Shown here piece after piece: positions 13,586 to 47,452 of a stretch of DNA of 64,000 nucleotides. Below the pieces are notes generated by a model, which saw nothing but the letters and a program-made list of their open reading frames with translations, made no database searches and had not been told where the DNA came from. Source of the DNA: Vreelandella halophila (GTDB taxonomy: Bacteria; Pseudomonadota; Gammaproteobacteria; Pseudomonadales; Oleiphilaceae); contig NZ_JACHUZ010000013.1 in the NCBI RefSeq assembly GCF_019903425.1, positions 1,848,948 to 1,912,947 of the forward strand. The letters run 5' to 3'. Made by a program: the position numbers and the translations under genes. The first letter of the stretch is position 1. Every line of letters starts with the position of its first letter.

Positions 13586-13601
13586 AGCAATCTATGTGCC
13601 A
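13586..13601 (-). promoter_or_regulatory. Sigma-54 promoter of the purine importer operon
   Basis: The minus strand reads TGGCACATAGATTGCT, an exact fit to TGGYAYRNNNNTTGCW. The start site would be near 13575, with a 27-base leader to the ATPase ATG. It faces away from the xdh promoter at 13652. I see no TGC-N11-GCA site in the 180-bp region between the genes, so the activator site, if any, is elsewhere. Confidence 0.7.
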
Positions 13602-27551: not shown

Positions 27552-27567
27552 TTCAAGCCCCGTGCCA
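27552..27567 (-). promoter_or_regulatory. Possible sigma-54 promoter of the Nit1C operon
   Basis: The minus strand reads TGGCACGGGGCTTGAA: a perfect -24 block, but the -12 is TTGA where TTGC is expected. The start site would be near 27541, giving a 68-base leader to nitB. The defect lowers confidence. Confidence 0.4.
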
Positions 27568-27572
27568 ATCAT

Positions 27573-27691: not shown

Positions 27692-27708
27692 TGCACTCCT
27701 TGGGAGCA
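27692..27708. promoter_or_regulatory. NtrC-like site upstream of the Nit1C promoter
   Basis: TGCACTCCTTGGGAGCA is a TGC-N11-GCA dyad one mismatch per half from TGCACC-N5-GGTGCA. Its centre is about 160 bp upstream of the predicted nit start site, within the range used by NtrC. Confidence 0.4.
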
Positions 27709-27744
27709 GGAGTTGTCAGCGTTGAACCAGAGTGGAGCACAGGG

Positions 27745-32725: not shown

Positions 32726-35700
32726 TCAATGCGCCAGTACCATCACCGCCTGGCCGGCATCAATCTGCTGTCCCTCCTGGCGGGCAATATGGGTGATTGT
32801 GCCGGCCTCGGGTGCTGTCACTTCGATCTCCATTTTCATGGATTCGAGGATCGCCACGACCTGATTTTCTTTCACGGCGTCCCCCTCGCTGACCAGGAGC
32901 TGCCAGATATTGCCGGCGGTCGGTGACTCCACCGGTGTGCCCTCGGGCAGCTCATCCGCCTCGTGCTCGCCCAGGTCCTGCTGGGATTCGTAGTTGATGG
33001 CGCCGCTGGCGACCCAGCGTTCCAGTTCCTCCTCGAAGGCCTGATTGCGGGATTCGGTGAAGGTCCGGATGCTCTCGGCGTTGGCCTCCAGGAACTGCTG
33101 GTACTCGTCCAGATCGAAGGTGGTTTCTTCGATCTGCAGCGGAAAGTCGCCCTTGGGGTGATCCCGGCGGATCTGCTGCAGCTCTTCCGAACTGACCTCG
33201 TAGAAGCGGATCTGGTCGAAGAAGCGCAGCAGGTGCGGTTCCGTGAAGTGGCGCGTGCGCCGGTAACGGTTCCAGACCTGCAGGGTGCGGCCCACGAACT
33301 GGTAACCGCCGGGGCCTTCCATGCCGTAGACGCACAGGTAGGAGCCGCCGATGCCGACGGAGTTCTCCGCCGTCCAGGTGCGGGCCGGGTTGTACTTGGT
33401 GGTCACGAGGCGCTGGCGGGGGTCATAAGGGGTGGCTACCGGCGCGCCCAGATAGACGTCACCAAGGCCCATGACCACGTAGCTGGCAGAGAACAGGATC
33501 TGCTTCACGTCATCGATGCTGTCGAGGCCGTTAATGCGCCGGATGAACTCCAGGTTGCTGGGGCACCAGGGCGCGTCGCTGCGCACCGACTGCATGTACT
33601 TGCGGATGGCCTCGTGGCAGGCCTCGTCATCCCAGGACAGGGGCAGCCAGACAATGCGCGAGGCCACCTTCTGTTCCTTCTGGTTCTGCAGGTGCTCTTC
33701 CGCTTCCTTCAGCAGCTGCAGGAGGCGTTGGCGGTCCATGACCAGCGGATCAAAGTGGATCTGCAGAGAGCGGATACCGGGTGTCAGTTCCAGCACGCCC
33801 GTCAGGTCCTGTTCCTGCAGCCAGAGCATCAGGGCGTGGGCACGGAAGCGCAGGCGCAGGTCCAGCTCAATGGGACCGTATTCCACCAGCAGGTAGCGGT
33901 CGCCACAGGGCCGGTAGGTGACGGCCACGCCGGCTTCTTCAGCGCTCAGTGACTGGAGGATGGGAGTCGTCGGGCGTTGGGATGTGACCGCCGGAGTCTG
34001 GTCCTCGAGGGCTGCGATGCTCTGGTTGCGGGCCTCGGTGAGACGGTCGGCATCCTCCAGGCTGACAGGCTCGAAACGCACAGTGTCGCCGGCCTTGAGC
34101 TGGCCCAGTTTCCAGAGGTCGGTCTGGATGACGGTTGCCGGGCACACGAAGCCGCCCAGCGAGGGGCCGTCCGGGCCCAGGATCACCGGCATGTCGCCGG
34201 TGAAGTCCACGGTGCCGATCGCGTAGGCGTTGTCGTGGATGTTGGAGGGATGCATACCCGCCTCACCGCCATCCCGCCGGGCCCATTCCGGCTTGGGACC
34301 GACCAGGCGGATGCCGGTGCGGTTGGAGTTGTAGTGGATCTGCCAGTCCGCGCTGAAGAAGGTCTCCATGTCCGCTTCGGTGAAGAACTCCGGCGCGCCA
34401 TGGGGCCCGTAGGTGCAGCGCAGGGTCCATTGGGTGGTGAGTCCGGGTGTCATGGATTCCGGCAGCGCCCTGGTTTCCGGAACTTCCGCCTCGGCGTCCA
34501 GGTGCAGCACATCGCCGGTGCGCAGCGCCCGCCCGCCGTGCCCACCGAACTGGCCGAGCGTAAAGGTGCTGCGCGAGCCCAGGTGGGGCTGGCACTGGAT
34601 GCCCCCGGCGATGGCCAGGTAGGCGCGGGCGCCGTTGCCGGTCACCTTGCCCAGTTTCAGGGTCTGGCCTGCAGCCACCTCCACAGTCCGGTTCAATGGC
34701 AGGATGTCACCGTCCAGGGTGGCGTTCAGGTCCGCGCCGGTCAGGGCGATGGTGGTGGCGCTGTTGAAGCGCAGGGTGGGGCCGTTCAGCGTCAGCTCCA
34801 GCCCGGCGGCGCCCTCGTCATTGCCCAGGAGGCGGTTGGCCAGGCGGAAGCTGAGGTTGTCCATGGGCCCGGAGGGTGGAATGCCCACCGGCCAGTAGCC
34901 GATCCGGCCGGGGTAGTCCTGCACCGTGGTCATGGTGCCGCTGGCCAGCACGTCGATGGTGGCCGGCTGATAAGTGAAATCGTTCAGGTAGCGGGTGGTC
35001 ATGCGGCCCCGGGCGAAGACCTCGTCCGCGAGGATCGCGGATACATACTCCCGGTTGGTCTCAATACCCTCGATAATGGTCTGCGCCAGTGTCTCCTGCA
35101 GCGCTGCCAACGCCTGATCCCGGTCGGCCTCCTCGTGCACGATCATCTTGGCCAGCATGGGGTCGTAGAGGGCGGAGACCTCCAGACCAGCCTCGATCCA
35201 GTGGTCAATGCGCCGCCGGCCGCCATCCGCTTCCGGGAATTCCACATGGGTCAGCAGCCCGGCACAGGGCTGGAAGTCCTTGTTCGGATCTTCCGCGTAA
35301 AGGCGGGCCTGTATGGCGTGGCCGGTGGGTTCCAGGTTAGCGGCAAGCTGTTCGATGTCACCCAGTTCACCGGCGGCCAGCTTCACCATCCACGCGACCA
35401 GATCCACGCCGTAAACCTGCTCCGTTACACCATGCTCCACCTGCAGACGGGTGTTCATCTCCAGGAAGTAGAAGCGGTGGGTGTCCTGGTCCATGATGAA
35501 CTCGACCGTGCCGGCATTGCGGTAGTTGACCGCCGAGACCAGGCGCGGGGCGGTCTCGTGGAGAGTGGCTCGTACATCGTCAGGCAGGTTGGGAGCGGGT
35601 GCCTCTTCCAGGACTTTCTGGTGGCGTCGCTGGGCGGAACAGTCGCGCTCGCCCAGGGCCACGGCTTTTCCGTTGCCGTCACCGAACACCTGCACCTCGA

Positions 35701-36322
35701 TGTGCCGGGCGTTCTCGATGTATTTCTCAAGGAAGACGCTGTCGTTGGCGAAGTTGTTGGCGCTCAGACGGCGTACGCTGTCCCAGGCCTTATCCAGGGT
35801 CTCGCTGTCGTGGCAGATCTGCATGCCAATGCCGCCACCGCCGGCGGAGCTCTTGAGCATGACCGGGTAGCCGATCTCCTCGGCGGCCTTCAGGGCGCTG
35901 GCCTTGTCGTCCAGCAGGCCGGTTCCCGGGAGCAGGGGCACTTCGGCCTTTTCGGCGATTTCGCGGGCGGTATGCTTGAGGCCGAATTCGGTCATCTGGT
36001 GCGGGCGCGGGCCGATAAAGGCGACGCCCGCGGCTTCGCAGCGTTCGACAAAGTCGGGGTTTTCGCTAAGGAAGCCGTAGCCGGGGTGGATGGCGTCGAT
36101 GCTGGCGTCTTCGATGATGCGGAAGAGCTTGTCCTGGTTGAGGTAGGTTTCTGTGGCGGAGCCATCGCCCAGGGACCAGGCTTCGTCGGCCTCGCGGACG
36201 TGCAGGGAGTCCGCGTCGGCTTCGGCGTAGACGGCGACGCTTGTGACGCCGAGGTTGCGCAGTGTGCGGGTGATGCGGCGGGCGATGGCGCCGCGGTTGG
36301 CGATCAGTACCTTGTTGAACAT
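32726..36322 (-). CDS. Guanidine carboxylase (biotin-dependent, annotated as urea carboxylase)
   Basis: A 1198-residue ATP- and biotin-dependent carboxylase. Biotin carboxylase occupies about residues 1-450 (KSSAGGGGIGMQ, ALGERDCSAQRRHQK, EMNTRLQVEH). The carboxyltransferase follows as a KipA/AHS2-like part (about 460-790) and a KipI/AHS1-like part (about 830-1050). The biotin domain carries the biotinyl lysine K1163 in ESMKM. Position D706 in GTVDFTGDMP is Asp, where the second carboxylase in this window has Asn. From memory, this position (N1330 in Kluyveromyces urea amidolyase) separates guanidine (Asp) from urea (Asn) enzymes. It is the last gene of the guanidine-riboswitch operon, next to two DUF1989 proteins. 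Guanidine specificity is inferred. Confidence 0.85.
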   Translation of the reverse strand: MFNKVLIANRGAIARRITRTLRNLGVTSVAVYAEADADSLHVREADEAWSLGDGSATETYLNQDKLFRIIEDASIDAIHPGYGFLSENPDFVERCEAAGVAFIGPRPHQMTEFGLKHTAREIAEKAEVPLLPGTGLLDDKASALKAAEEIGYPVMLKSSAGGGGIGMQICHDSETLDKAWDSVRRLSANNFANDSVFLEKYIENARHIEVQVFGDGNGKAVALGERDCSAQRRHQKVLEEAPAPNLPDDVRATLHETAPRLVSAVNYRNAGTVEFIMDQDTHRFYFLEMNTRLQVEHGVTEQVYGVDLVAWMVKLAAGELGDIEQLAANLEPTGHAIQARLYAEDPNKDFQPCAGLLTHVEFPEADGGRRRIDHWIEAGLEVSALYDPMLAKMIVHEEADRDQALAALQETLAQTIIEGIETNREYVSAILADEVFARGRMTTRYLNDFTYQPATIDVLASGTMTTVQDYPGRIGYWPVGIPPSGPMDNLSFRLANRLLGNDEGAAGLELTLNGPTLRFNSATTIALTGADLNATLDGDILPLNRTVEVAAGQTLKLGKVTGNGARAYLAIAGGIQCQPHLGSRSTFTLGQFGGHGGRALRTGDVLHLDAEAEVPETRALPESMTPGLTTQWTLRCTYGPHGAPEFFTEADMETFFSADWQIHYNSNRTGIRLVGPKPEWARRDGGEAGMHPSNIHDNAYAIGTVDFTGDMPVILGPDGPSLGGFVCPATVIQTDLWKLGQLKAGDTVRFEPVSLEDADRLTEARNQSIAALEDQTPAVTSQRPTTPILQSLSAEEAGVAVTYRPCGDRYLLVEYGPIELDLRLRFRAHALMLWLQEQDLTGVLELTPGIRSLQIHFDPLVMDRQRLLQLLKEAEEHLQNQKEQKVASRIVWLPLSWDDEACHEAIRKYMQSVRSDAPWCPSNLEFIRRINGLDSIDDVKQILFSASYVVMGLGDVYLGAPVATPYDPRQRLVTTKYNPARTWTAENSVGIGGSYLCVYGMEGPGGYQFVGRTLQVWNRYRRTRHFTEPHLLRFFDQIRFYEVSSEELQQIRRDHPKGDFPLQIEETTFDLDEYQQFLEANAESIRTFTESRNQAFEEELERWVASGAINYESQQDLGEHEADELPEGTPVESPTAGNIWQLLVSEGDAVKENQVVAILESMKMEIEVTAPEAGTITHIARQEGQQIDAGQAVMVLAH

Positions 36323-36339: not shown

Positions 36340-36385
36340 TGCGGGTCGTCCCGCCTGGTTGTTACCGGTCCACTGGGGTCGTCCC
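36340..36385. repeat. Twin tetraloop hairpins between DUF1989 and carboxylase genes
   Basis: The 83-bp gap before the carboxylase holds two near-identical hairpins. On the minus strand they read GGGGACGACCCC (36385-36374) and GCGGGACGACCCGC (36353-36340), both with an ACGA loop. No T-run follows on the minus strand, so an mRNA-processing or stability element is more likely than a terminator. Confidence 0.5.
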
Positions 36386-36405
36386 CGGGACTCAGTCTTC
36401 CGAAA

Positions 36406-37047: not shown

Positions 37048-37793
37048 CAGGCACCTCCTGCATCGGTCAGGCGGACGGGGTCGTCCAGGTAATAGAGTCG
37101 GGTGTTTTCCATGGCCCGACGGCTTGTGGCGTGGGCATTGACGCATTCGTCATCCGGTGTGACCGGGTCGGTCTTCAGGAATTCCACCTGGATGGGCTTC
37201 TTCGGGTACTCGGTTGCCGGGTTCAGCGGATGCGGGCTGGTCGCGGCGATGACCAGGGCATCCATGTCGAAGCGCAGGGTCACGCTGGCGCCGGGGCGGT
37301 TGTGACCGTCCACGTAGCGCATGTTGCCGGCGTCGTCGGTCTCCACCCGGCTGAACAGGTTGAGGTTGGCGTGCAGGTCGCGCTCACTGAGCCCGTACTT
37401 GGCCAGTTCGGTAAGGAAGCTTTCCTCGCCGGAGAGGCACCATTCGTTCATGTATTCCTGGAAGGACCAGCGACCGAAGCGCTCGTAGCAGGCGCCCCGG
37501 GTCAGGGTACCGCAGGCGGAGTCGTGGCCGCCGAAGTCGTCCTCGACGATGGAGGCGATACAACGCCCCATGTCGGAATAGAGGCAGTGGCCCTGGGTCA
37601 GGCGGAAGATTTCCTGGGCCTTCATGGTGTCGGGCGCGTTGTAGCGCTCCATGAGCATTTTCGGGTTGAAAATGAGCAGGGCCAGGTTGCCGCCGCCTTC
37701 CACGTCCGTCAGGCGCAGGCCAGTGTTGCGGCGCATGCGGAAGGACCAGTGGTGGCCTCCGGGCAGGGTGTAGTCGTAGAGGAGTCGACTCAT
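37047..37793 (-). CDS. Carboxyguanidine deiminase subunit (DUF1989, urea carboxylase-associated protein 2 type)
   Basis: A 248-residue DUF1989 paralogue. It begins [22 protein letters not shown], and has [22 protein letters not shown] as the likely metal site and [12 protein letters not shown] after it. It is expected to form a heteromer with the smaller paralogue. Its start overlaps the ATPase gene by 4 bp (ATGA), which ties deimination to uptake in one message. Confidence 0.82.
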
Positions 37794-38605
37794 GAGTGTT
37801 CTCCTGTCGGTTGCGGGGTTTGGGTGTCGATGGTCCGGGCGGTGGCATCCACGTCGGCATTGATGTCGTCCAGCACGCCGGTGTCGTCGCGGCCCACGGC
37901 GAGGTCGTAGGTGATGCGGGCGCCGTAGGCCTCGGGGGCCTGCGGGTCCAGGCGCTCCTTGTCGAAGACCCAGAGGCGGGTGCCCAGGGCAAAGCCTTCC
38001 TCAATGTCGTGCGTGATCATGAAGACGGTAAGCTGCTGCTCGCGCCACAGGCGGCTGACCAGCTCGTGCATATCCCGTCGGATGCCCGGGTCCAGGGCCC
38101 CGAAGGGTTCGTCCAGAAGCAGGATCCGGGGTTTCTTGATCAGGGCCTGGGCAAGGGCGAGGCGCTGCTGCATGCCGCCGGAGAGTTCGTGGGGGTACTT
38201 GTCGAGGGCGTGTTCCAGGCCCACCTCTTTCAGCATGGCGATGGCGTCATCCCGGAGCCGGCGCCGGTGGGCGCCGAAGACACGCCCGAGCCAGCGGCTA
38301 GCTTCCAGCTCGCCGGCGAGCATGACGTTGCCGGTGGCATCCAGGTGCGGCATCACGGAGTAGCGCTGGAAGACGATGCCGCGTGTGGCGTCCGGCTCTT
38401 CCGGTATCGGCTTGCCATCCAGAAGCAGCTCGCCGCGCGTGGGTGTCTCGGTGCCCAGCAGCATCTTCAGGAAGGTGGTCTTGCCGCAGCCGGAGGCGCC
38501 CACCACGGTGACGAACTCGCGTGCCTCGATGCTGGCGTTGAGCCGTTCCAGCACTACGTCCTCGCCGAATTCCTTCCACAGGTTGCGGATTTCGATCATG
38601 GCCAT
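37790..38605 (-). CDS. Guanidine-operon ABC transporter ATPase
   Basis: A 271-residue importer ATPase of the nitrate/taurine type. Visible are GASGCGKTTFLKMLL (Walker A), HELSGGMQQRLALAQAL (signature) and ILLLDEPFGALDPG (Walker B). ATG 38605 follows AGGGGG by about nine bases; a frame to 38653 would run into the permease gene and is rejected. It works with the permease and binding protein next to it; import of guanidine or a guanidine compound is inferred from the riboswitch and enzymes. Confidence 0.88.
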   Translation of the reverse strand: MAMIEIRNLWKEFGEDVVLERLNASIEAREFVTVVGASGCGKTTFLKMLLGTETPTRGELLLDGKPIPEEPDATRGIVFQRYSVMPHLDATGNVMLAGELEASRWLGRVFGAHRRRLRDDAIAMLKEVGLEHALDKYPHELSGGMQQRLALAQALIKKPRILLLDEPFGALDPGIRRDMHELVSRLWREQQLTVFMITHDIEEGFALGTRLWVFDKERLDPQAPEAYGARITYDLAVGRDDTGVLDDINADVDATARTIDTQTPQPTGEHS

Positions 38606-38616
38606 AGTTGCGCCCC

Positions 38617-39435
38617 CTATTGGCCGGTTGCGTGGAACCAGGGGTAACGCCACCTGGACCAGCGGTTGAGCAGGAAGTCGATCACCAGCGCCAGCAGCGT
38701 GATCCAGAGGACGTAGGGCAGGATCACGTCCATGGAGAGGTAGCGCCGCACCAGGAAGATGCGGTAGCCAAGCCCCTCAGTGGCGGCGATGGCCTCGGCG
38801 GCGATCAGGAACAGCCAGGCGGTACCAAGCGCGAGGCGCGTGGTGGCCAGCAGCCGTGGCATGATCTGGGGCAGCATCAGGCGGGTGATGGTCTGCCAGG
38901 TGTTGGCCCCGAGCGTCTGCATCTTGATGATCTGTTCCTCGGGGATCTCAAGGGTCCGCTGCTGCATGTCCCGGATCATGAAGGGCGTCACGCCAATGAT
39001 GATCAGCATGACCTTGGCCAGTTCCTCCAGCCCGAACACGATGAACAGGATTGGCAGGATGGCCATGGGGGGGACCAGGGAGATGCCCACGACCAAAGGC
39101 GAGAGCGTGGCTCGCACATAGGGAATGGCGCCGTTGGCGATACCGAATATCAGGGCCAGCGCGGCGGAAAAACCAATGCCGATACCAAGCCTCTGAAGGC
39201 TCGCCAGGGTGTCCTGGAGCAACAGGTAGTCGCCGGAGCGCTTGCTGGGTTCAAACGCCATGCGTTCGACCGCCTCAGCCATCTGGGTCAGTGAGGGCAG
39301 CAGGGGGTCATCCGGGTTCTCCGCCAGTCGTGCCGTCGAGGCGCCGATGTAGATCGCCAGCAGGAGGGCGAATGGCAGCAGGCCCAGGAACCAGCGGGCG
39401 TAGCGATTGGGTTGGCGGTTGATCAGTTTCTTCAT
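38617..39435 (-). CDS. Guanidine-operon ABC transporter permease
   Basis: A 272-residue BPD_transp_1 permease of the TauC/SsuC type with about six membrane helices. The coupling helix region is MQTLGANTWQTITRLMLPQIMPRLL (EAA loop, around residues 180-205). It lies 11 bp before the ATPase start and 67 bp after the binding-protein gene. Confidence 0.88.
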   Translation of the reverse strand: MKKLINRQPNRYARWFLGLLPFALLLAIYIGASTARLAENPDDPLLPSLTQMAEAVERMAFEPSKRSGDYLLLQDTLASLQRLGIGIGFSAALALIFGIANGAIPYVRATLSPLVVGISLVPPMAILPILFIVFGLEELAKVMLIIIGVTPFMIRDMQQRTLEIPEEQIIKMQTLGANTWQTITRLMLPQIMPRLLATTRLALGTAWLFLIAAEAIAATEGLGYRIFLVRRYLSMDVILPYVLWITLLALVIDFLLNRWSRWRYPWFHATGQ

Positions 39436-39502: not shown

Positions 39503-40558
39503 TCAGAGTTCCCCGTCTGCGGCCTGCTGCATGTACTTGTCCGTAAAGCGCAGGTTCACGTTGCCTTCGTTACCGTAGGTCCCGGACGGTGTCTCGATGC
39601 CCACGGCTTCCGCGCTGGGCGCACCCTGGCCGAGCAGGCCATGACGGAAAGAGAACTCGGCCACGTTCTGCATGGTTTCCAGCAGCTGGTCACTACGGGT
39701 GAAATCCACCGCTTCGGAGGGGTCATGGAACATGTTGGTCGCCTCCAGCTGGGCCTCGTAGCCCTCAAGATCGGTGCCCGCGGCATTCGCCATATGGGTG
39801 CGGGCCTCAATGGCGGTTTCGTCGCTGCCCTGCATGTGGGCCATGATCTCGTACCAAGCGCCGGTCAGGGCTTTGCCGAACTTGGGGTTCGCTTCCAGGG
39901 TTTCTGTGTTGACCACCATCAGGTCCATGATCTCGCCAGGGATCTGTGAAGAGTCGAACACCAGGTTGGCATTGGGCTGTTCCAGCACTGAACTGAGCTG
40001 CGGGTTCCAGGTCACCACGGAACTGACGTCGGGTGTGGCGAAAGCGGAGACAATGTCCGCATCGGCGGTGTTGACGACCTCGATATCACGCTCGGACAGC
40101 CCGACGGATTCCAGACCCCGTGCCAGCAGGTAGTGGGAGACAGAGAGTTCCACCAGGTTGACGCGCTTGCCCTCGATCTCGGCCAGGTCATCCTCGTTCT
40201 TCATGACGATGCCATCGTTGCCATCGGAGAAGTCGCCCACCAGCAGCGCGGTGGAGTCCACGCCGCCGGATGCCGGGATGGTGAGCGCGTCCATGTTGGT
40301 CATGGTGCAGCCGTCGAAGCGGCCGGAGGTGTACTGGTTGATGGACTCGATGTAGTCGTTGATCTGGACCACGTCGATTTCGATGTCGTACCTGTCAGCC
40401 CATTTATCAACGATGCCTTCGGCATCGCCGTAATCCCAGGGCATCCAGCCCACATAGATGGACCAGCAGACACTGAATTCGTCCTTGGCAAGGGCGGTGC
40501 CGGGCAGCATGCCGGCGGCGGCAATGAAGGGGAGTGCGGTAAGCAGCTTGGATCGCAT
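39503..40558 (-). CDS. Guanidine-operon ABC substrate-binding protein
   Basis: A 351-residue periplasmic protein of the family named for urea carboxylase regions (TauA/NMT1-like fold). The signal peptide is residues 1-24 (cleavage TALAKD). The mature start CWSIYVGWMPWDYGDAEG has aromatic residues that could cage a planar cation. It is the first gene after the guanidine-I riboswitch, and AGGAGG lies six bases before the ATG. Many existing labels say urea; guanidine or a guanidine derivative is more likely here. Confidence 0.87.
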   Translation of the reverse strand: MRSKLLTALPFIAAAGMLPGTALAKDEFSVCWSIYVGWMPWDYGDAEGIVDKWADRYDIEIDVVQINDYIESINQYTSGRFDGCTMTNMDALTIPASGGVDSTALLVGDFSDGNDGIVMKNEDDLAEIEGKRVNLVELSVSHYLLARGLESVGLSERDIEVVNTADADIVSAFATPDVSSVVTWNPQLSSVLEQPNANLVFDSSQIPGEIMDLMVVNTETLEANPKFGKALTGAWYEIMAHMQGSDETAIEARTHMANAAGTDLEGYEAQLEATNMFHDPSEAVDFTRSDQLLETMQNVAEFSFRHGLLGQGAPSAEAVGIETPSGTYGNEGNVNLRFTDKYMQQAADGEL

Positions 40559-40564
40559 GTCGAG

Positions 40565-40618
40565 CCTCCTGACGGTGGACTGGGAGGAATCAGATGGCTG
40601 TTCAGCCTGTATCCTCCC
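40565..40618 (-). promoter_or_regulatory. Possible translational expression platform of the riboswitch
   Basis: On the minus strand the segment TTCCTCCCA (40589-40581) can pair in two ways: seven bases with GGGAGGA at the 3' end of the aptamer (40618-40612), enclosing GGCTGAACAGCC, or five bases with the AGGAGG ribosome site (40570-40565). The pairings exclude each other. No T-run terminator is visible, so control of translation is likely, though the direction of the switch cannot be read from sequence alone. Confidence 0.45.
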
Positions 40619-40703
40619 GGGCTTTTGTCCCGCCGTGTAACCTTCAGAAGGTCGACCGCTCTCGGACCAGACGCCACGTCGGTGTGGCCGGAACCCTAGC
40701 TGT
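40612..40703 (-). promoter_or_regulatory. Guanidine-I riboswitch (ykkC motif)
   Basis: The minus strand carries the conserved aptamer blocks in order: CTAGGGTTCCGG (40699-40688), GTCTGGTCCGAGAGC (40672-40658), then ACACGGCGGGACAAAAGCCC and GGGAGG ending near 40613. Between the blocks are a GCCAC/GTGGC stem and a variable ACCTT/AAGGT hairpin, as in the known structure. These are the hallmarks of the guanidine-sensing ykkC RNA, which turns on guanidine export or degradation genes. It lies 54 bases before the ABC binding-protein gene. Confidence 0.93.
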
Positions 40704-40775
40704 CCATTTCAGATTGTCTTGGAACGGACCGGGCAGCACAGCGCCGCTCAGTCATCTGATTCCTGTCTGGTAGAT

Positions 40776-40791
40776 TGCAACCACAGTGCCA
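40776..40791 (-). promoter_or_regulatory. Sigma-54 promoter of the riboswitch-guanidine operon
   Basis: The minus strand reads TGGCACTGTGGTTGCA, with a full -24 TGGCAC, GG-N10-GC spacing and -12 TTGCA. The start near 40765 is about 65 bases before the aptamer. It lies between the GntR gene and the riboswitch, downstream of two NtrC-like sites. Confidence 0.72.
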
Positions 40792-40856
40792 CCTATGGAA
40801 AAGCCTTTAATGACAGTAGCCTGGGGGATCTGATGCTGCCGTGGTCTGGACTCGGG

Positions 40857-40873
40857 TGCGCCACCTTGGTGCA
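40857..40873. promoter_or_regulatory. NtrC-like site 1 upstream of the guanidine operon
   Basis: TGCGCCACCTTGGTGCA differs from TGCACC-N5-GGTGCA at a single position. Its centre is about 100 bp upstream of the predicted sigma-54 start site, the usual distance for an NtrC enhancer. Confidence 0.6.
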
Positions 40874-40886
40874 GCTGAGAGGGGTG

Positions 40887-40903
40887 TGCCCCGGTTGGGG
40901 GCA
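40887..40903. promoter_or_regulatory. NtrC-like site 2 upstream of the guanidine operon
   Basis: TGCCCCGGTTGGGGGCA is a dyad with the TGC-N11-GCA core, one mismatch per half from the NtrC consensus. It is 30 bp (about three turns) from site 1, on the same helix face, as in tandem NtrC enhancers. Confidence 0.5.
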
Positions 40904-40918
40904 GATTGGGCCTGGAAC

Positions 40919-41632
40919 CTAAGGGCGGCCTGGTTCCCGGCGCCGATGCTGTTGCGAAACCTCCCGGATGCGCTCCAGCGAGATGCCCTTGACGGCCTCC
41001 TGGCTGGTACGGATATGGGCGGTCATTTTCTCCGCGGCCTCACCGGGATTGTTGGCGATCAGTGCCTGCAGGATCTCGGCGTGTTCCCGGTAAGTGGCAT
41101 CGATCCGGTCGGGCCGGGTGAAATCAAGCCGGCGCACGATGCGCAGCCGGTCCGTTATCCGCTGGTGCACCTGGGTCATTTCGTCGTTGTCGGCCGCCGC
41201 CACCAGCTCACAGTGGAAGCTCTCATCGAGGGCACGCACGGTGCTGCCGAAAGCTCTCTCGGAGGGGGCATCCGGGTTCCAGATGTCATTGAGCAGCCGC
41301 AGGGCGGGTGGCGGCTTATCCAGGCGGCAGATCTTGTGCATGGCGGCCCGCTCAAGGGTGATGCGCAGGTCGTAGAGCTCCTCGATCTGCTTGAAATCCA
41401 GCTGCCGTATCTGCCAGCCACTGCGGAAAAGCACGTCCACATAGCCTTCGCGTTCCAGCCGGTACAGCGCCTCGCGCACCGGCGTGCGGCTGGCCGAAAG
41501 CCGCTGCGCGATGTCGGATTCACTGAACTTGTCGCCCGGGATCAGGCGGAACTCAAAGATATCCTCCTTGAGCGCCTGATAGATCCGGTCGGCCATGCTT
41601 TCGCGCTGTGTGGGGGCGCCGGATTCCGCCAT
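40919..41632 (-). CDS. GntR/FCD-family regulator of urea use
   Basis: A 237-residue FadR-type regulator. The winged helix (about residues 12-80) has FSESDIAQRLSASRTPVREALYRLEREGYV; the FCD effector domain (about 90-215) has likely metal histidines in DESFHCELV, EHAEIL and AHIRTSQ. It lies 17 bp after the urea carboxylase gene and is probably co-transcribed with it. Two CTTGTATACAAG palindromes in the atzF/urtA divergent region fit the TGT-ACA operators of FadR-type proteins, so autoregulation of the urea genes is inferred. The effector is unknown. Confidence 0.83.
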   Translation of the reverse strand: MAESGAPTQRESMADRIYQALKEDIFEFRLIPGDKFSESDIAQRLSASRTPVREALYRLEREGYVDVLFRSGWQIRQLDFKQIEELYDLRITLERAAMHKICRLDKPPPALRLLNDIWNPDAPSERAFGSTVRALDESFHCELVAAADNDEMTQVHQRITDRLRIVRRLDFTRPDRIDATYREHAEILQALIANNPGEAAEKMTAHIRTSQEAVKGISLERIREVSQQHRRREPGRP

Positions 41633-41649: not shown

Positions 41650-44600
41650 TCAGGAATCGGTTTGAATGCTCACCAGAGGGGCTCCCGGTGAGACCGCTTT
41701 ACCCGGCTCACAGTGTATCGCACTGATGCGGCCACTGTCGGGCGCTGTCATCTCAAACTCCATTTTCATGGCTTCCACAATGACCACTGGATCTCCCTGG
41801 GCAACGGTGTCGCCCGGCTGCACCAGGCACTTCCAGATGTTACCCGCGATCTCGGCGCTCACCAGTTCGCCAAGCGCCTCCAGCTCATCCGTTGCCGGGC
41901 GGTTGCTGGCGTCATGGAGTGCCTCCACGGCCCGGTCCTCGCTTTCCTTCCAACGGGCAACCTCCTCATGGTAGGCGGCCCGCTGGTGTTCGCGGAACTG
42001 AGCGATCGAGTCCGCATGCTCGTCCAGGAACGCCTTGTGCGAGACGAGCTCGAAGGTCTCCTCCTCAATGGGGATGGTCAGCTCACCGGCGCGGAACTGA
42101 TCCCGCAGCTCATGCAGCTCCTCCTCGCTGACCGGGTAGAACGAGACCTGGTCGAAGAACCGCAACAGCCAGGGCTTGCCGGCTTCGAACTGGGGGTTTT
42201 TGAGGTGCTTGTTCCAGATCGGCAGGGTGCGCCCAACCAGCTGGTAGCCCCCAGGTGAGTCCATCCCGTAGATGCACATATAGACGCCGCCGATGCCCAC
42301 GGTTCCCTCCGCTGTCCAGGTCCGGGCCGGGTTGTACTTGGAGGTCATGAGCCGGTGGCGGGGATCCAGTGGCACGGCGCAGGGGGCACCCAGATAAACG
42401 TCACCCAGGCCCAGCACCAGGTAGCGTGCGCTGTAGAGCACGTCGCGGACTTCATCCCGGTGTTCCAGGCCATTGAGGCGCTGGATGAAATCCACGTTGT
42501 TGGGCAGCCAGGGCGCGGTATCACGCACGGATTGGCGGTATTTGTCCACGGCCTCCAGGGTGGCGGTATCCTCGAACGCCATGGGCAGGTGCAGCACCCG
42601 GCTTCGGACCGTGAGTTCATCCGTTGCCGGCAGTGTCTGCTCAATGTCCAGCAGTGTCTGGATCAGGGATGACTGTGGCAGACGGTGCGGGTCGTAGCGC
42701 AGCTGCAGGGAACGCACCCCCGGCGACAGTTCCAGGAGGCCCACCAGGGCCCGATCTTCCAGCGCCTCCATAAGGCCGTGAATGCGCAGGCGGAAGCCCA
42801 GGTCCATAACGTTGGGCCCGTATTCCATCAGTATGTAGTTGTCGCCGGCCTGGCGGTAGCACACGGCGGGCCCGGTATCGGACTCCGGCAGAGAGGCCAG
42901 GATGGTGGCGGAGGCTTCCTTTTCGGGCTCCAGCCTCGGGGGCTGCCACGCCGGCTCTGGCTGGTGCTGTAGAGTCGCTATGGTGTCTTCCCGCTGCTGG
43001 GTCAGTGCCATGGCGGTGTCCATGTCCATGGGGACGAACTGGATGGTGTCGCCTGGTTTGACCTGACCCACCTTCCACAGTTCCGCGCTGGCGATGGTGA
43101 CCGGGCAGACAAAGCCGCCCAGGCTGGGCCCGTCCCGCGTCAGGATCACGGGCATGTCGCCGGTGAAGTTGATGCTGCCGATGGCGTACTCGCAGTCGTG
43201 GATGTTGGAGGGGTGGAGGCCTGCCTCGCCGCCGTCGGTCCGGGTGAACTCCGGGCGGGGTCCGTTCAGCCGGATGCCCAGCCGGTTGGAGTTGTAATGG
43301 ACTTCCCAGGCGGTATCTAAGAAGCGCGTGATGGAGTCCCGGGTGAAGAACTCCGGTGCGCCATGCGGGCCGTAGAGCACGCCGATCTGCCAGTGGTCCG
43401 GATACGTTGGAATCAGCGCGGGATCCGCCGGGGCGGGTGCGGTTTCGGGCGCGGCAGTGGTGCAGGCAGGCAGTTCCGGCTGGTTGAGCGGGACGGTGTC
43501 TCCGGCGCGCAGTGGCCGGCCCCCGTGACCGCCGAACTGGGCGAGGGCGAAGGTGGCTCGGCTGCCCAGGTATTCGGGCACGTCGAAGCCGGCGCGCACG
43601 GCCAGATAGGTGCGGCAGCCTGTTGTCGCCCGGCCCACGGTCAGGGTCTGGCCGGCCGATACGGTTACCGGTTCCCAGAACGGACAGGGGGTGCCGTCGA
43701 TGTCCGCGTCCGTGCTGGCACCGGTCAGGGCAATGACGCTGTCACGGTGAAAGGTCAGGGTGGGGCCTATGAGGGTGCACTCCAGGCCGGCAGCTTCCGG
43801 GGCATTGCCCGCGATCCGGTTGGCCAGGCGGAACGCGTAATCGTCCATGGGGCCGGAAGGCGGTACGCCGATGTGCCAGTAGCCGACACGCCCGGGGCAG
43901 TCCTGGACGGTGGTATAGGTCCCAGGTTTGACCACCTCGACCACGTTGGGCCTGTATTCGAAGGTATCCAGTGAGGATGTGGCGACCTCGCCGGCACTGA
44001 AGGCCGGGTCCGCCAGAACCTGGCGCAGGTAATCCAGATTGGTGGCAATGCCCAGCAGGCGGGTCTCGTCCAGCGCGTTGCGCAGGCGCGCCAGCGCGTC
44101 GTCGCGGTCGCGCCCGTGTACGATCATCTTGGCCAGCATGGGATCATAGTGCGGTGAGACTTCGGTGCCGGTCTCCACCCAGCCGTCAATGCGCACATCC
44201 TTTTCCGGCCAGTGGACATCATTGAGTTCGCCGGGCGCTGGCTGGAAGTCCTTGAGGGGGTCTTCGGCGTAAAGCCGGACTTCCATTGCCGCGCCCTCGA
44301 ACCGTGGCTCGAACGCATCCAGATCCGGGGACTCACCAGCACCGATGCGCAGCATCCATTCAACCAGGTCGATGCCGGTCACGCATTCGGTTACCGGATG
44401 CTCCACCTGCAGCCGCGTGTTGACCTCCAGAAAATAGAAAGCGTCACGGTCTGCGTCATAGATGTACTCAACCGTGCCGACCGACTGGTAGTTCACCGAT
44501 TTACCGAGGGCCACGGCGGCATCCAGCATGGCGCGGCGGGTCCTGGCGGGCAGGTTCGGCGCCGGTGTTTCCTCCACTACTTTCTGGTTACGGCGCTGCA

Positions 44601-45288
44601 GAGAGCAGTCGCGCTCGCCCAGCGCGATCACACGCCCTTGTCCGTCGCCGACAATCTGGACCTCCACATGGCGGGCGCGGGCGATGTAACGCTCCAGAAA
44701 GACGCCGCTGTCATTGAAGAAGCTTTCGCCAAGACGCTGCACGCTCGCAAAGGCCTGGCGCAGTTCATCCGCGGTGTCGCAGCGGTTGAGGCCGATGCCA
44801 CCGCCTCCGGCCGTTGACTTGAGCATCACCGGATAGCCCAGCTGCTCGGCGCTGGCCAGTGCTTCTTCGAGGCCGCTCAGCAACCCCGTACCTGGTGCGA
44901 GGGGGACGGCGGCGTCTTCGGCCAGGGCCCGCGCGCGGTGCTTGAGACCGAACTCACGGATCTGATCCGGGGTAGGGCCGGCGAAGTGGATTCCAGCATC
45001 CGCGCAGGCCTCGGCAAAGTCCGCGTTCTCCGAGAGGAACCCGTAACCGGGGATGATGGCGTCAGCACCCGATTCGCGCGCAATGGACAGAATGCGCTCT
45101 GTGTCGAGATAGGTCTCGGCGGCGCTCTCGCCGGTTAGTGGATAGGCCTCATCAGCGAGTGTGGCGTGCTGGCTGTGGCGGTCCGGATGGGAGTAGACCG
45201 CAATGCTGGTGATGCCCAGCCGCTTGAGGCTTTGGATGATGCGCACCGCAATCTCGCCCCGGTTGGCCACAAGAACCTTTGAAAACAT
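41650..45288 (-). CDS. uca: Urea carboxylase
   Basis: A 1212-residue biotin-dependent enzyme that carboxylates urea to allophanate. It has the same layout as the guanidine-type enzyme: biotin carboxylase (about residues 1-450; KSTAGGGGIGLN, ALGERDCSLQRRNQK), KipA/AHS2-like and KipI/AHS1-like carboxyltransferase, and biotinyl K1175 in EAMKM. At the discriminating position it has N707 (GSINFTGDMP), as expected for a urea enzyme. ATG 45288 has AAGGAG about seven bases upstream; a frame to 45396 runs into the allophanate hydrolase gene and is rejected. It is in one operon with atzF and gntR, divergent from the urea importer genes. Confidence 0.9.
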   Translation of the reverse strand: MFSKVLVANRGEIAVRIIQSLKRLGITSIAVYSHPDRHSQHATLADEAYPLTGESAAETYLDTERILSIARESGADAIIPGYGFLSENADFAEACADAGIHFAGPTPDQIREFGLKHRARALAEDAAVPLAPGTGLLSGLEEALASAEQLGYPVMLKSTAGGGGIGLNRCDTADELRQAFASVQRLGESFFNDSGVFLERYIARARHVEVQIVGDGQGRVIALGERDCSLQRRNQKVVEETPAPNLPARTRRAMLDAAVALGKSVNYQSVGTVEYIYDADRDAFYFLEVNTRLQVEHPVTECVTGIDLVEWMLRIGAGESPDLDAFEPRFEGAAMEVRLYAEDPLKDFQPAPGELNDVHWPEKDVRIDGWVETGTEVSPHYDPMLAKMIVHGRDRDDALARLRNALDETRLLGIATNLDYLRQVLADPAFSAGEVATSSLDTFEYRPNVVEVVKPGTYTTVQDCPGRVGYWHIGVPPSGPMDDYAFRLANRIAGNAPEAAGLECTLIGPTLTFHRDSVIALTGASTDADIDGTPCPFWEPVTVSAGQTLTVGRATTGCRTYLAVRAGFDVPEYLGSRATFALAQFGGHGGRPLRAGDTVPLNQPELPACTTAAPETAPAPADPALIPTYPDHWQIGVLYGPHGAPEFFTRDSITRFLDTAWEVHYNSNRLGIRLNGPRPEFTRTDGGEAGLHPSNIHDCEYAIGSINFTGDMPVILTRDGPSLGGFVCPVTIASAELWKVGQVKPGDTIQFVPMDMDTAMALTQQREDTIATLQHQPEPAWQPPRLEPEKEASATILASLPESDTGPAVCYRQAGDNYILMEYGPNVMDLGFRLRIHGLMEALEDRALVGLLELSPGVRSLQLRYDPHRLPQSSLIQTLLDIEQTLPATDELTVRSRVLHLPMAFEDTATLEAVDKYRQSVRDTAPWLPNNVDFIQRLNGLEHRDEVRDVLYSARYLVLGLGDVYLGAPCAVPLDPRHRLMTSKYNPARTWTAEGTVGIGGVYMCIYGMDSPGGYQLVGRTLPIWNKHLKNPQFEAGKPWLLRFFDQVSFYPVSEEELHELRDQFRAGELTIPIEEETFELVSHKAFLDEHADSIAQFREHQRAAYHEEVARWKESEDRAVEALHDASNRPATDELEALGELVSAEIAGNIWKCLVQPGDTVAQGDPVVIVEAMKMEFEMTAPDSGRISAIHCEPGKAVSPGAPLVSIQTDS

Positions 45289-45304
45289 GGCGTTACTCCT
45301 TGTT

Positions 45305-47101
45305 TTATCCCTGTTGTTCCCGGAGGGACTGGATATAGGCGCGCCAGCCCCCCAGATGCGTGATGTCCGTGGCTCCCTCGAGCCCCGCTTCCTCACAGAT
45401 GAAGCCCTTGGCCCAGGTGCCGTCCGCCAGTTCGACGGTGCCGATGCCCAGTGGGTGGGGAATCAGGTCGACGAAGGATCCGAAGTGCTCCGTGGGCATC
45501 GCCCAAACCTCGACGTCCAGGGCGCCGCCGGTGGGGTCCCGTCGCAGGCCGGGTTTGGGAGGAGTAGTGCCAGCGAGGGCGTACAGCCGGTAACAGGAGG
45601 CGGTTGTTGTGCTTTGCAGCAGCCTTGCACCGCGCTCGGTAAGCTGGCTGTTGAGTGGCATGCCGCTCAGGTGTGCACCCACCACGGTTACCTGGACCGT
45701 GCCGCGATCGGGTTCTGGTGGCGTTTCCGGTGGCCGTTCCCGTCCAGTAGCGCCGAGTGGCGTCGGAGCGTGGTTGAGCCAGTGTGCGCCCAGCTGCTGA
45801 AGATCCCGGTCACGCCAGGCACCACTAATCAGGGTGATGCCGAAAGGCAGGCCGTCCCCGCGGAACCCGGCCGGCAACGCCAGCGCGCAAAGGTCAGCCA
45901 GGTTGACGAAGTTGGTGTAGCGGCCAAGGCGGGCGTTCAGGTGGACAGGGTCGGCCTCCACCGCACTGATGGAAGGGGTAATGGGCGCGGTTGGCACCAG
46001 CAGGGCATCGATGTCCGCCAGCTCCTGGTCCAGGGCATGGCGTAGCTCGTGCTGTTGGTAGAGGCCGTTGAACGCATCGGTAGCTGTGAACCCCTCCGCC
46101 TGGCGGATGATGTCCCGGACCACCGGGTTCATGGCCGCAGCATTCGCCTCCATGAAGGTGCTGATGGCGGCGTGGCGCTCCGCGATCCAGGGACCTTCAT
46201 ACAGGAGTGCGGCCATGGCGTAGAGCGTTGTGAAGTCACGTTCCACCATTTCGAGGCCCAGGGACCGCCACTGGCTCAGGGCCTGCTCCCATGCTTCGCG
46301 CTGCTGGTCATCGCCGTACCATTCCGGATCCCGGGGAATGGCCAGGCGTTGGATCGGCCCCGGTGTCCTCAGTGCACAGTCAGGGTTTGATCCGGACTCA
46401 AGGCGTGAGCGGCCGAAGGGGTCGGTGCTTTCGCCCGATGCCAGTTGGTTCTGGATCAGGCCGGCGTCGGCCGTGGTCAGGGCGAACACCGAGACACAGT
46501 CCAGGCTCCGGCACGCCGGGATCACGCCGCGGGTGCTGACTGCTCCCCGGGTTGGCTTGAGGCCCACGATGTTGTTCAGTCCTGCCGGTACACGTCCGGA
46601 CCCGGCAGTGTCCGTACCCAGGGCAAAGGGGACGGTGCCGCGGGCCACGACCGCGGCGGAGCCGGAACTCGACCCTCCCGCTATGACGGTGTCATCGAAG
46701 GTGTTGGGGACGGCGCCCCAGGGGGAGCGTGTGCCGACAAGCCCCGTGGCGAACTGGTCGAGGTTGGTCTTGCCGATCAGTACGGCGCCCGCCTCTTTCA
46801 ATGCCTGGACCGCTTCCGCGTCGCACTCGGGCCGATAGCCGTATTCCGGGCAGGCCGCAGTGGTCTCGAATCCGAGCGCGTCAATGTTGTCCTTGATCGC
46901 AAACGGCACCCCATAGAGTGGTTGCTCAGGGGAAAGGGTCGCGATCTGGGCAGCGAGCTGTTCCTGGCTCGTCAGGCTGATCCAGGCGGGATCCCGGGGA
47001 TCCTCCGCATCCAGCAGCGCTTCCAGAAGCGCCTGGGGTGACTGGCCGTCGCGGTACGCATTCTGCCAGTCCCTGATGGTCCATCCGGTTGTTGAAGCCA
47101 T
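45305..47101 (-). CDS. atzF: Allophanate hydrolase
   Basis: A 598-residue amidase-signature enzyme that splits allophanate to ammonia and CO2. The Ser-cisSer-Lys triad is visible as K70 (FAIKDNID), the cis-serine in GGSSSGSA (S144-S146) and nucleophile S168 (DTAGSGR). A C-terminal domain (about 460-598) has the AtzF-type HLSGMPLN and LYALAGTTPPKPGL motifs. It is the first gene of the urea carboxylase operon. It is the only allophanate hydrolase in the window, so it probably also serves the guanidine pathway. Confidence 0.92.
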   Translation of the reverse strand: MASTTGWTIRDWQNAYRDGQSPQALLEALLDAEDPRDPAWISLTSQEQLAAQIATLSPEQPLYGVPFAIKDNIDALGFETTAACPEYGYRPECDAEAVQALKEAGAVLIGKTNLDQFATGLVGTRSPWGAVPNTFDDTVIAGGSSSGSAAVVARGTVPFALGTDTAGSGRVPAGLNNIVGLKPTRGAVSTRGVIPACRSLDCVSVFALTTADAGLIQNQLASGESTDPFGRSRLESGSNPDCALRTPGPIQRLAIPRDPEWYGDDQQREAWEQALSQWRSLGLEMVERDFTTLYAMAALLYEGPWIAERHAAISTFMEANAAAMNPVVRDIIRQAEGFTATDAFNGLYQQHELRHALDQELADIDALLVPTAPITPSISAVEADPVHLNARLGRYTNFVNLADLCALALPAGFRGDGLPFGITLISGAWRDRDLQQLGAHWLNHAPTPLGATGRERPPETPPEPDRGTVQVTVVGAHLSGMPLNSQLTERGARLLQSTTTASCYRLYALAGTTPPKPGLRRDPTGGALDVEVWAMPTEHFGSFVDLIPHPLGIGTVELADGTWAKGFICEEAGLEGATDITHLGGWRAYIQSLREQQG

Positions 47102-47122: not shown

Positions 47123-47134
47123 CTTGTATACAAG
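47123..47134. promoter_or_regulatory. GntR operator 1 (atzF side)
   Basis: CTTGTATACAAG is a perfect 12-bp palindrome at the predicted start site of the atzF sigma-54 promoter, placed to block transcription. It has the TGT-ACA half sites typical of FadR-type GntR regulators. Confidence 0.65.
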
Positions 47135-47142
47135 AAGTCTTT

Positions 47143-47158
47143 AGCAACCGGTGTGCCA
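47143..47158 (-). promoter_or_regulatory. Sigma-54 promoter of the atzF-uca-gntR operon
   Basis: The minus strand reads TGGCACACCGGTTGCT, an exact match to TGGYAYRNNNNTTGCW. The start near 47132 gives a 31-base leader to the atzF ATG and lies inside operator 1. Confidence 0.72.
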
Positions 47159-47264: not shown

Positions 47265-47281
47265 TGCGACAGAACGGTGCA
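47265..47281. promoter_or_regulatory. NtrC-like site upstream of atzF
   Basis: TGCGACAGAACGGTGCA has a perfect GGTGCA half and a TGC-N11-GCA core. The centre is about 140 bp upstream of the predicted atzF start site. Confidence 0.4.
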
Positions 47282-47440: not shown

Positions 47441-47452
47441 CTTGTATACAAG
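47441..47452. promoter_or_regulatory. GntR operator 2 (urtA side)
   Basis: This is a second exact copy of CTTGTATACAAG, about 108 bases before the urtA ATG. It lies within a wider inverted pair, CTGTCTT (47427-47433) and AAGACAG (47450-47456). Confidence 0.65.

Follow-up and report, generated by a model that had tools for sequence, protein, structure and literature searches.

A sigma-54 promoter with tandem NtrC-like sites precedes a guanidine-I riboswitch and recurs with it across genera, suggesting a two-input switch for guanidine use

In Vreelandella halophila, a sigma-54 promoter element and two NtrC-like dyads are positioned upstream of a guanidine-I (Gd-I) riboswitch at the head of a transporter-deiminase-carboxylase operon. 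Throughout, the window is the whole 64,000-nucleotide stretch of DNA that was analysed. A known riboswitch class is here paired with a known promoter class, a pairing not found described in the literature searched, and the pairing proves to be common: in a survey of genomes, the combination of sigma-54 element, tandem NtrC-like dyads, and Gd-I aptamer returns well outside the genus. A likely helix anchored at the transcription start adds to it. The comparison of sequences also supports a regulatory reading of this layout, from which we infer the logic of the gate and the RNA mechanism. The layout is probably a two-input switch (we put the probability at roughly 85%), in which the use of guanidine as a nitrogen source would need both nitrogen limitation and guanidine.

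The Gd-I aptamer (RF00442) lies at 40612–40710 on the minus strand. Its covariance-model score of 89.4 bits, against a gathering threshold of 63, assigns it to the Guanidine-I class, and a response of this aptamer to guanidine is predicted. The aptamer is followed by an expression platform of 53 nt, which includes the Shine-Dalgarno sequence AGGAGG of the first gene (40565–40570, minus; direct reading). The operon, also on the minus strand, begins with the substrate-binding protein of an ABC transporter (TIGR03427, 39503–40558, 549 bits) and continues with profile matches to an ABC permease (38617–39435), an ABC ATPase (37790–38653), UAAP1 (TIGR03425, 37047–37793), and UAAP2 (TIGR03424, 36406–37146). 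Proteins of the UAAP1/UAAP2 type are presumably the subunits of carboxyguanidine deiminase. Inside the operon, a Guanidine-II riboswitch (36341–36390, minus; 36.2 bits, gathering threshold 32) is followed by a carboxylase (TIGR02712, 32726–36322, minus). The window contains two TIGR02712 carboxylases, the other at 41650–45396, and they are 53% identical. Urea carboxylases have Asn at TIGR02712 position 701. Asp at this position is the criterion for a guanidine carboxylase (PMC11410670). At the presumed guanidine/urea site, whose position was placed by counting and not by HMM alignment alone, the carboxylase at 32726–36322 has VDF and that at 41650–45396 has INF; from the riboswitch context and the Asp at the presumed diagnostic site, we read the former as the guanidine carboxylase.

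The sigma-54 consensus is TGGCAC-N5-TTGCW, with GG at -24, GC at -12, and 10 nt between them. The element TGGCACTGTGGTTGCA at 40776–40791 (minus) matches this pattern exactly, with GG and GC at the same spacing. The preliminary description had placed a sigma-54 promoter here, about 65 bp before the aptamer; the coordinates are right, the 16-mer is perfect, and the measured gap is 65 nt. The predicted transcription start (+1) is at 40765 (minus), 12 nt past the C of the -12 motif, and leaves a leader of 55 nt before the aptamer. Exact sigma-54 16-mers occur three times in the window, where 0.07 are expected per shuffle, and the pattern TGGCAYN5TTGCW occurs 12 times in the whole 3.5 Mb genome, compared with five times for the reversed pattern. 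A profile search finds one RpoN in the genome (516 bits; cut-off, 277). In alignments of relatives, the sigma-54 element forms a conserved block 5' of the leader.

The survey of the layout looked for Gd-I aptamers in three sets of genomes: 58 relatives, of which 22 gave matches; 370 genomes of the class, of which 34 gave matches at E <= 0.001 and 32 passed the cut-off; and 397 genomes of the phylum (taken, from the named matches, to be Pseudomonadota), where these numbers were 57 and 54. The three genome sets overlap, and the window's own genome is in each. Places under the family cut-off (2 of 43 in the class, 4 of 77 in the phylum) were left out, and removal of repeats gave 127 distinct Gd-I loci in 98 genomes. 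A sigma-54 16-mer with at most one mismatch is found within 150 nt 5' of the aptamer in 91 of the 127 loci; 25 loci have a perfect element, and 106 have one with at most two mismatches. At the one-mismatch level, the controls give 0/127 on the reverse strand, 0/126 at 550–700 nt upstream, and 0.2% of 2540 shuffles. Of 70 genera, 45 have at least one locus with such a site, as do 32 of 47 families, and with a single locus drawn at random per genus, 60% have one. A search for the same layout in related genomes, proposed in the preliminary description, thus finds sigma-54 with Gd-I at 91 of 127 loci and tandem dyads at 44 of those 91.

Counting against the generality of the gate, 36 of the 127 loci have no site with at most one mismatch, 21 have none with at most two, and seven of the 47 families have no site with at most two mismatches at all. 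In family f227, no sigma-54 site with at most one mismatch is found in any of the six over-cut-off loci. The best plasmid matches of an f227 locus are to Limimaricola and to a Rhodobacteraceae bacterium, at 73–75% identity over less than half of the query. In Rhodobacter, NtrC works with sigma-70 polymerase, and the lack of sigma-54 sites in f227 would fit for this reason. When the first downstream open reading frames are clustered, 91 of the 127 loci have a substrate-binding protein. No detoxification (SMR exporter) operon was recognised among the clusters to which an identity could be given, and there is therefore no detoxification contrast within the set.

The gap between element and aptamer in the 91 sigma-54 loci is 42–65 nt in 58, 4–11 nt in 12, and 32–39 or 66–121 nt in 21. 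In the short-gap class (12 loci, including L068, L069, L079, L124, L136, and L137), a sigma-54 element with at most one mismatch stands 4–11 nt before the aptamer, so that transcription would start where the aptamer model does or slightly within it, and the leader helix would be missing. Two other arrangements were observed. Four genomes carry two Gd-I riboswitches back to back, divergent on opposite strands, about 280–450 nt apart (L063/L107, L066/L110, L074/L113, and L142/L146). In one genus (f20, g309), two genomes each have three Gd-I riboswitches on one strand within about 6 kb (L081, L115, L119; L088, L118, L123), each with its own sigma-54 site at no more than two mismatches.

Named genomes were scanned with a pattern that joins the sigma-54 element, the gap, and the core of the aptamer; at least 119 stretches match. 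The matches listed include Pseudomonas, Stutzerimonas, Paraburkholderia, Burkholderia, Herbaspirillum, and Variovorax, as well as Raoultella, Buttiauxella, Marinomonas, Alcanivorax, and Psychrobacter. Among 80 loci listed, there are 84 pattern matches, of which one has no recognisable aptamer end, leaving 83 for scoring. Because this set was selected by sigma-54 element and aptamer, it bears on the helix and the dyads only; it may overlap the 127-locus set.

A predicted leader helix is an addition to the layout described earlier. Its 5' strand AGGAATCAGATGACTG (40749–40764, minus) spans +2 to +17 of the predicted transcript, and its 3' strand CAGCCATCTGATTCCT (40585–40600, minus) lies after the aptamer. 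Ungapped scoring gives 15 pairs and one mismatch over +2 to +17, and a constrained energy fold gives 11 pairs over +2 to +12. When nine loci of the family are aligned, a conserved block AGGAATCARATGG is found at the predicted start in most rows, and its reverse complement is found directly after the aptamer. To score the helix elsewhere, the ~26 nt that open the predicted transcript were matched without gaps to the 90 nt that follow the aptamer, and the best helix was kept. The loci scored were the 91 in which the sigma-54 element has two mismatches or fewer and the gap is 25 nt or longer, a different selection from the 91 counted above at one mismatch or none. The median score is 10.7 for a locus's own strands and 8.0 for partners swapped between genomes (p 4e-23); scores of at least 12 are reached in 35 of 91 loci, with 56 below, against 48 of 1365 swapped pairs. 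When each genus is represented by a single locus (one mismatch or none), 19 of 39 reach 12, against 67 of 1482 (p 4e-12), and among the matches listed in the named set, 17 of 83 do, against 74 of 1245 (p 9e-11); these p-values ignore shared ancestry. An earlier duplex-energy test against mononucleotide shuffles was weaker, with z below -3 in only 24 of the 91 long-gap loci; ungapped scoring, controlled by swapping partners and sliding windows, was adopted after that result was known.

To locate the helix, the leader window was moved from -150 to +30 in increments of 15 nt in 74 loci (at most one mismatch, gap of at least 40 nt). Scores of at least 11 are found in 30 of the 74 at the predicted start, in 9 at -15, 12 at +15, and 5 at +30, and in 0–3 at -30 to -150. 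Across relatives, the helix maximum thus falls on the predicted sigma-54 start, which in the window is 40765, and it lends this predicted start indirect support. In ten aligned relatives, 94.7% of cells pair, compared with 27–44% when the strands are slid. Two of 15 pairs are changed on both sides, a count reached by 351 of 500 shuffles, whereas 15 of 500 equal the covariation score. Formal covariation is thus modest, and what speaks for the helix in close relatives is conservation, not rich covariation. The wider evidence comes from other genera, in which leaders of unrelated sequence are still complementary at the same place.

The helix is reminiscent of the P0 helix of PRPP and ppGpp riboswitches, in which, according to the accessible text of PMC6031431, the ends flanking a ykkC-type aptamer pair and join the expression platform. 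In that account, P0 lies directly at the aptamer ends and is absent from the guanidine aptamer, whereas in the window the 5' strand lies at the sigma-54 start and ends 38 nt upstream of the aptamer model. Because of this 38-nt separation, the leader helix does not sit directly at the aptamer ends as P0, a short helix coaxial with P3, does, and we regard it as P0-like in action, not as a member of P0. Such a start-anchored, P0-like helix likely recurs, with unrelated sequences, in other genera. For guanidine-I riboswitches, the stretch downstream of the binding site is described as unnecessary in the accessible text of PMC5912903.

Energy folding of the window RNA gives two alternative structures, in a model that contains no ligand, kinetics, or tertiary contacts. 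In the unconstrained minimum (-87.7 kcal/mol from +1), the 5' strand of aptamer P2 (40644–40656, minus) pairs with the Shine-Dalgarno region (40559–40572), and the 3' end of the aptamer, GGGAGGA (40612–40618, minus), forms the 5' arm of a competing hairpin with TCCTCCC at 40582–40588, which the 3' strand of the leader helix overlaps. With the aptamer pairs enforced (-66.8 kcal/mol), +2 to +12 pair with 40585–40595 and close the aptamer, and the Shine-Dalgarno sequence is weakly paired, not wholly free. Without the 55-nt leader, the corresponding energies are -69.0 and -41.0 kcal/mol. The leader narrows the gap between free and enforced folds from 28.0 to 20.9 kcal/mol, and would therefore favour the aptamer-formed state by about 7 kcal/mol. 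In local folds of 42 loci with a helix score of at least 11, half or more of the partner strand pairs with the 3' end of the aptamer or with the spacer in 29, against 15 of 42 when the upstream part is shuffled, so that the competing hairpin is only moderately above the shuffle; a T-run follows it in 5 of 42. From the local folds and the T-runs, we consider that the output is probably translational in the window operon and transcriptional in some relatives. An intrinsic terminator in the window leader was considered and rejected: a scan of 40500–41000, leader included, finds none, and the fold that hides the Shine-Dalgarno sequence fits better.

The alternative that survives best concerns this helix, which might extend the aptamer as a fixed element, or exist as a side effect of the hairpin strand, and take no part in switching. 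The modest formal covariation, the 56 of 91 loci without a helix scoring at least 12, and the 12 loci (at most one mismatch) whose gaps of 4–11 nt allow no such leader are in its favour; the complementarity kept at the same place by unrelated leaders of different genera, and the overlap of the partner strand with the 3' arm of the competing hairpin in the window and in relatives, speak for a role in switching. We consider the static helix possible, though rather unlikely.

Further upstream are the two NtrC-like dyads. The upstream dyad, TGCCCC-CAACC-GGGGCA (40887–40903, minus; centre 40895, or -130), has two mismatches to TGCACC-N5-GGTGCA, and the downstream dyad, TGCACC-AAGGT-GGCGCA (40857–40873, minus; centre 40865, or -100), has one. 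Two 17-bp dyads with these centres, 100 and 130 bp upstream of the start and 30 bp apart, had been reported before, and all coordinates and distances are correct. The arrangement corresponds to that of an NtrC-activated promoter, with tandem 17-bp dyads about three helical turns apart and upstream of the promoter. By itself, the NtrC pattern in the window is weak evidence, with nine occurrences at two or fewer mismatches and 5.4 expected. The dyads carry weight because of their tandem arrangement, their position, and their recurrence in relatives, not because of the window count.

Across the 91 sigma-54 loci, a dyad with at most two mismatches is found 60–220 bp 5' of the start in 31, while shuffles give 9 of 910 and far-upstream stretches 0 of 90; at three or fewer mismatches, over the same stretch, the numbers are 65 of 91, 112 of 910, and 8 of 90. 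Tandem dyads (up to four mismatches each, 40–220 bp upstream, 28–34 bp apart) are present at 44 of the 91 loci; among shuffles the number is 45 of 1820 (2.5%). The spacing has a sharp peak at 30 bp, with 15 loci where 0.3 are expected, and at 31 bp, with 20 where 0.55 are expected. Counting against the reading, it is also raised at 20 bp (9 loci, 0.15 expected) and at 13 bp (17 loci, 3.4 expected), where the arms overlap. With a single locus per genus in the long-gap class, tandem dyads are found in 21 of 39 and a dyad with at most two mismatches in 15 of 39. From this recurrence across loci and genera, we take tandem dyads about 30 bp apart to be a general feature. Among the matches listed in the named set, 23 of 80 loci have a dyad with at most two mismatches, a count without a shuffle control. 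Dyads at the level of two mismatches or fewer gather near -87, -100, -118, -130, and -141, in steps of roughly one helical turn, and the clusters at -100 and -130 are inflated by near relatives of the window.

In the nearest relatives, the -100 dyad (at most two mismatches) is also present in genomes G002, G003, and G004, and the -130 dyad has identical letters in G002 and G004; in G003 no counterpart of the latter is found at three or fewer mismatches. The preliminary description had staked the proposal on conservation of the dyads in relatives. They are recurrent, and to that extent the expectation is borne out; it does not hold for the -130 dyad of G003 or for the 60 of 91 sigma-54 loci without a dyad at two or fewer mismatches, a number that counts against the NtrC reading.

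The upstream dyad could instead be the transcript-end hairpin of the GntR-family gene at 40919–41632 on the same strand, leaving the -100 dyad as the only enhancer. The dyad begins 16 nt past the last base of that gene (15 nt between), its RNA can form a GCCCC-CAACC-GGGGC hairpin, and it has two mismatches to the NtrC pattern and is the one not found in G003. However, no T-run lies behind 40887–40903, the terminator scan is empty, and 44 of 91 loci have tandem dyads at such a spacing, which makes this explanation unlikely.

The GntR-family gene also bears on which promoter the operon uses, since it ends 127 bases before the sigma-54 site. Transcription could be mainly read-through from the allophanate hydrolase-urea carboxylase-GntR operon, or start at an unrecognised sigma-70 promoter, with the sigma-54 promoter secondary, and the absence of a recognisable intrinsic terminator at 40500–41000 is in keeping with read-through. 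A scan of the same 500 bp finds no sigma-70-like site, though, and the sigma-54 element is a conserved block in alignments, the RNA helix is anchored to the sigma-54 start, and the source of any read-through would still be a promoter of sigma-54/NtrC type, at 47143–47158. A secondary role for the sigma-54 promoter at 40776–40791 is, in our judgment, quite improbable.

Regarding the activator, the E. coli NtrC box has been proposed as TGCACCAnnnTGGTGCA in the accessible text of PMC8743547, and the window dyads resemble it. A profile search finds one NtrC over the cut-off in the genome (758 bits; cut-off, 559). The glnA gene lies 2 kb before ntrC on the same contig, and an open reading frame resembling a histidine kinase lies directly before ntrC. 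The NtrC model also matches 11 further places at 246 to 426 bits, which are probably other activators of the same type. Of the 12 genomic sigma-54 sites, with gene types read from the translated gene starts, two have dyads with at most two mismatches 60–220 bp upstream, namely the guanidine promoter and the allophanate hydrolase promoter. The glnA promoter, TGGCAAAGCTTTTGCT, has one mismatch and dyad-like sites (two to three mismatches) at about -141, -110, and -97, a layout similar to that of the guanidine operon promoter. At the flagellar-type sigma-54 sites of the genome, no dyad is found at three or fewer mismatches.

If another activator, perhaps from one of those 11 places, drove the sigma-54 promoter, the second input would not be nitrogen status, and the 60 of 91 sigma-54 loci without a dyad at two or fewer mismatches would accord with another enhancer-binding protein. 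Against this are the resemblance of the dyads to the E. coli box in the portion of PMC8743547 available, the tandem spacing of 30–31 bp across genera, the dyad-like sites at the genome's own glnA together with their absence at the flagellar-type sites (three or fewer mismatches), and the ntrC dependence of a like-annotated operon of Burkholderia cenocepacia, as given in the accessible text of PMC5491218. We regard another activator as very improbable. Chance resemblance of the whole layout, to which the barely raised number of NtrC-like matches in the window alone might point, is rejected by the reverse-strand, far-upstream, dinucleotide-shuffle, swapped-partner, and slid-window controls and can be set at a negligible probability.

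Other sigma-54 sites are present in the window. The promoter at 47143–47158 (minus), before the allophanate hydrolase-urea carboxylase-GntR genes, has an NtrC-like dyad with two mismatches at 47265–47281, about -141 from its start. Two perfect palindromes CTTGTATACAAG (0.01 expected) are found at 47123–47134, over the predicted start of this promoter, and at 47441–47452, before a divergent periplasmic-binding-protein gene; they look like operators, perhaps with the GntR-family regulator at 40919–41632 as the candidate protein. A sigma-54-like site at 27552–27568 (minus) has a broken -12 GC (TTGAA) and is accompanied by NtrC-like dyads at 27692–27708 and 27723–27739, with two mismatches each and 31 bp apart. 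The site precedes a 160-aa open reading frame for which Pfam gives no match at 1e-6, along with genes for a carbon-nitrogen hydrolase and a radical SAM protein. A perfect sigma-54 site at 13586–13601 (minus) lies before ABC transporter genes with a Bmp/PnrA-like binding protein; no NtrC-like dyad with four or fewer mismatches is found at -60 to -220 from it, and a dyad with one mismatch lies farther upstream, at 13865–13881.

We propose that the two-input switch works as follows. Under nitrogen limitation, phosphorylated NtrC would bind the tandem dyads at -100 and -130 and activate sigma-54 RNA polymerase at 40776–40791, so that transcription would start at about 40765; both steps are suggested by the conserved DNA. 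The transcript would fold the Gd-I aptamer recognised by the covariance model, whose ligand is known for the class. Without guanidine, the 3' end and a P2 strand of the aptamer would pair downstream, as the possible pairings and the relatives suggest. Here this would hide the Shine-Dalgarno sequence; some relatives would instead form a hairpin resembling a terminator. Once guanidine is bound, the aptamer would hold, and +2 to +12, perhaps to +17, would pair with the strand after the aptamer. This leader helix would close the aptamer as P0 does and block the competing hairpin, allowing expression of the transporter-deiminase-carboxylase operon, and the guanidine-II switch would gate the carboxylase a second time. 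Because the first nucleotides of the transcript would form the leader helix, the sigma-54 start would supply one strand of the ON structure. Both signals are probably needed, since most related switches examined share the promoter-riboswitch pairing.

The preliminary description knew of no described case of this pairing. That holds for the riboswitch: in a search of the literature on guanidine riboswitches with sigma-54, NtrC, RpoN, or nitrogen starvation, subscription journals being mostly outside its reach, no paper pairing the two was found, and the text of a 2025 review of guanidine physiology (PMC12186494) contains neither sigma nor NtrC nor nitrogen starvation or limitation. It is qualified by two reports, in their accessible text, on genes of similar annotation: the NtrC dependence of a B. 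cenocepacia 'urea carboxylase' operon has been measured, and sigma-54 control of COG3665 has been predicted. In B. cenocepacia H111, 'urea carboxylase' is at log2 -6.0 in an ntrC mutant in nitrogen-limited cells, and the authors state that 95% of the top 150 genes are also regulated by sigma-54 (PMC5491218, accessible text). As in the window, urea carboxylase and ABC transporter genes go together there (I35_7282–7286, down in the mutant); the likeness is by annotation alone, and guanidine and riboswitch are absent from the accessible text. An in silico sigma-54 regulon predicts control of 102 COG3665 genes in alpha-, beta-, and gammaproteobacteria, 59% of them called urea carboxylase (PMC12316311); in the accessible text, 'guanidin' is absent and 'riboswitch' occurs in a reference title only.

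The closest described operon is that of Vreelandella boliviensis, which, like the window, has Gd-I at the operon start, an ABC transporter, carboxyguanidine hydrolase subunits, and Gd-II before the guanidine carboxylase (PMC12508155, accessible text). That operon is up on guanidine or methylguanidine versus ammonium, and the rise is ascribed to the riboswitches. NtrC and nitrogen starvation or limitation are absent from the accessible text, in which the sole 'promoter' is the T7 promoter of the methods. Because a rise on guanidine versus ammonium is there ascribed to the two riboswitches, nitrogen limitation and guanidine are left unseparated in that account. A nitrogen transcription regulator and a metabolite riboswitch on the same gene are found in cyanobacterial gifB; unlike the window, gifB uses NtcA, of the Crp family and not a sigma-54 activator, its ligand is glutamine, and no start-site-anchored helix is described in the accessible text (PMC6316151).

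In 45 of the 70 Gd-I genera sampled, guanidine sensing stands behind a sigma-54 promoter, and comparisons of growth on guanidine and on ammonium cannot separate the two inputs. Tentatively, and with slightly less than an even chance of being right, we suggest that promoter and riboswitch are fused in many genera: only RNA started by sigma-54 and NtrC would be fully switchable by guanidine, the AND gate would be hard-wired by the start site, and guanidine would be handled in these bacteria as a nitrogen source and not as a toxin. If the leader helix is functional, the start site of the promoter would be a structural part of the riboswitch. The finding bears directly on a question still open, the reason for which bacteria sense guanidine, and it recasts a riboswitch class that is widespread in this phylum.
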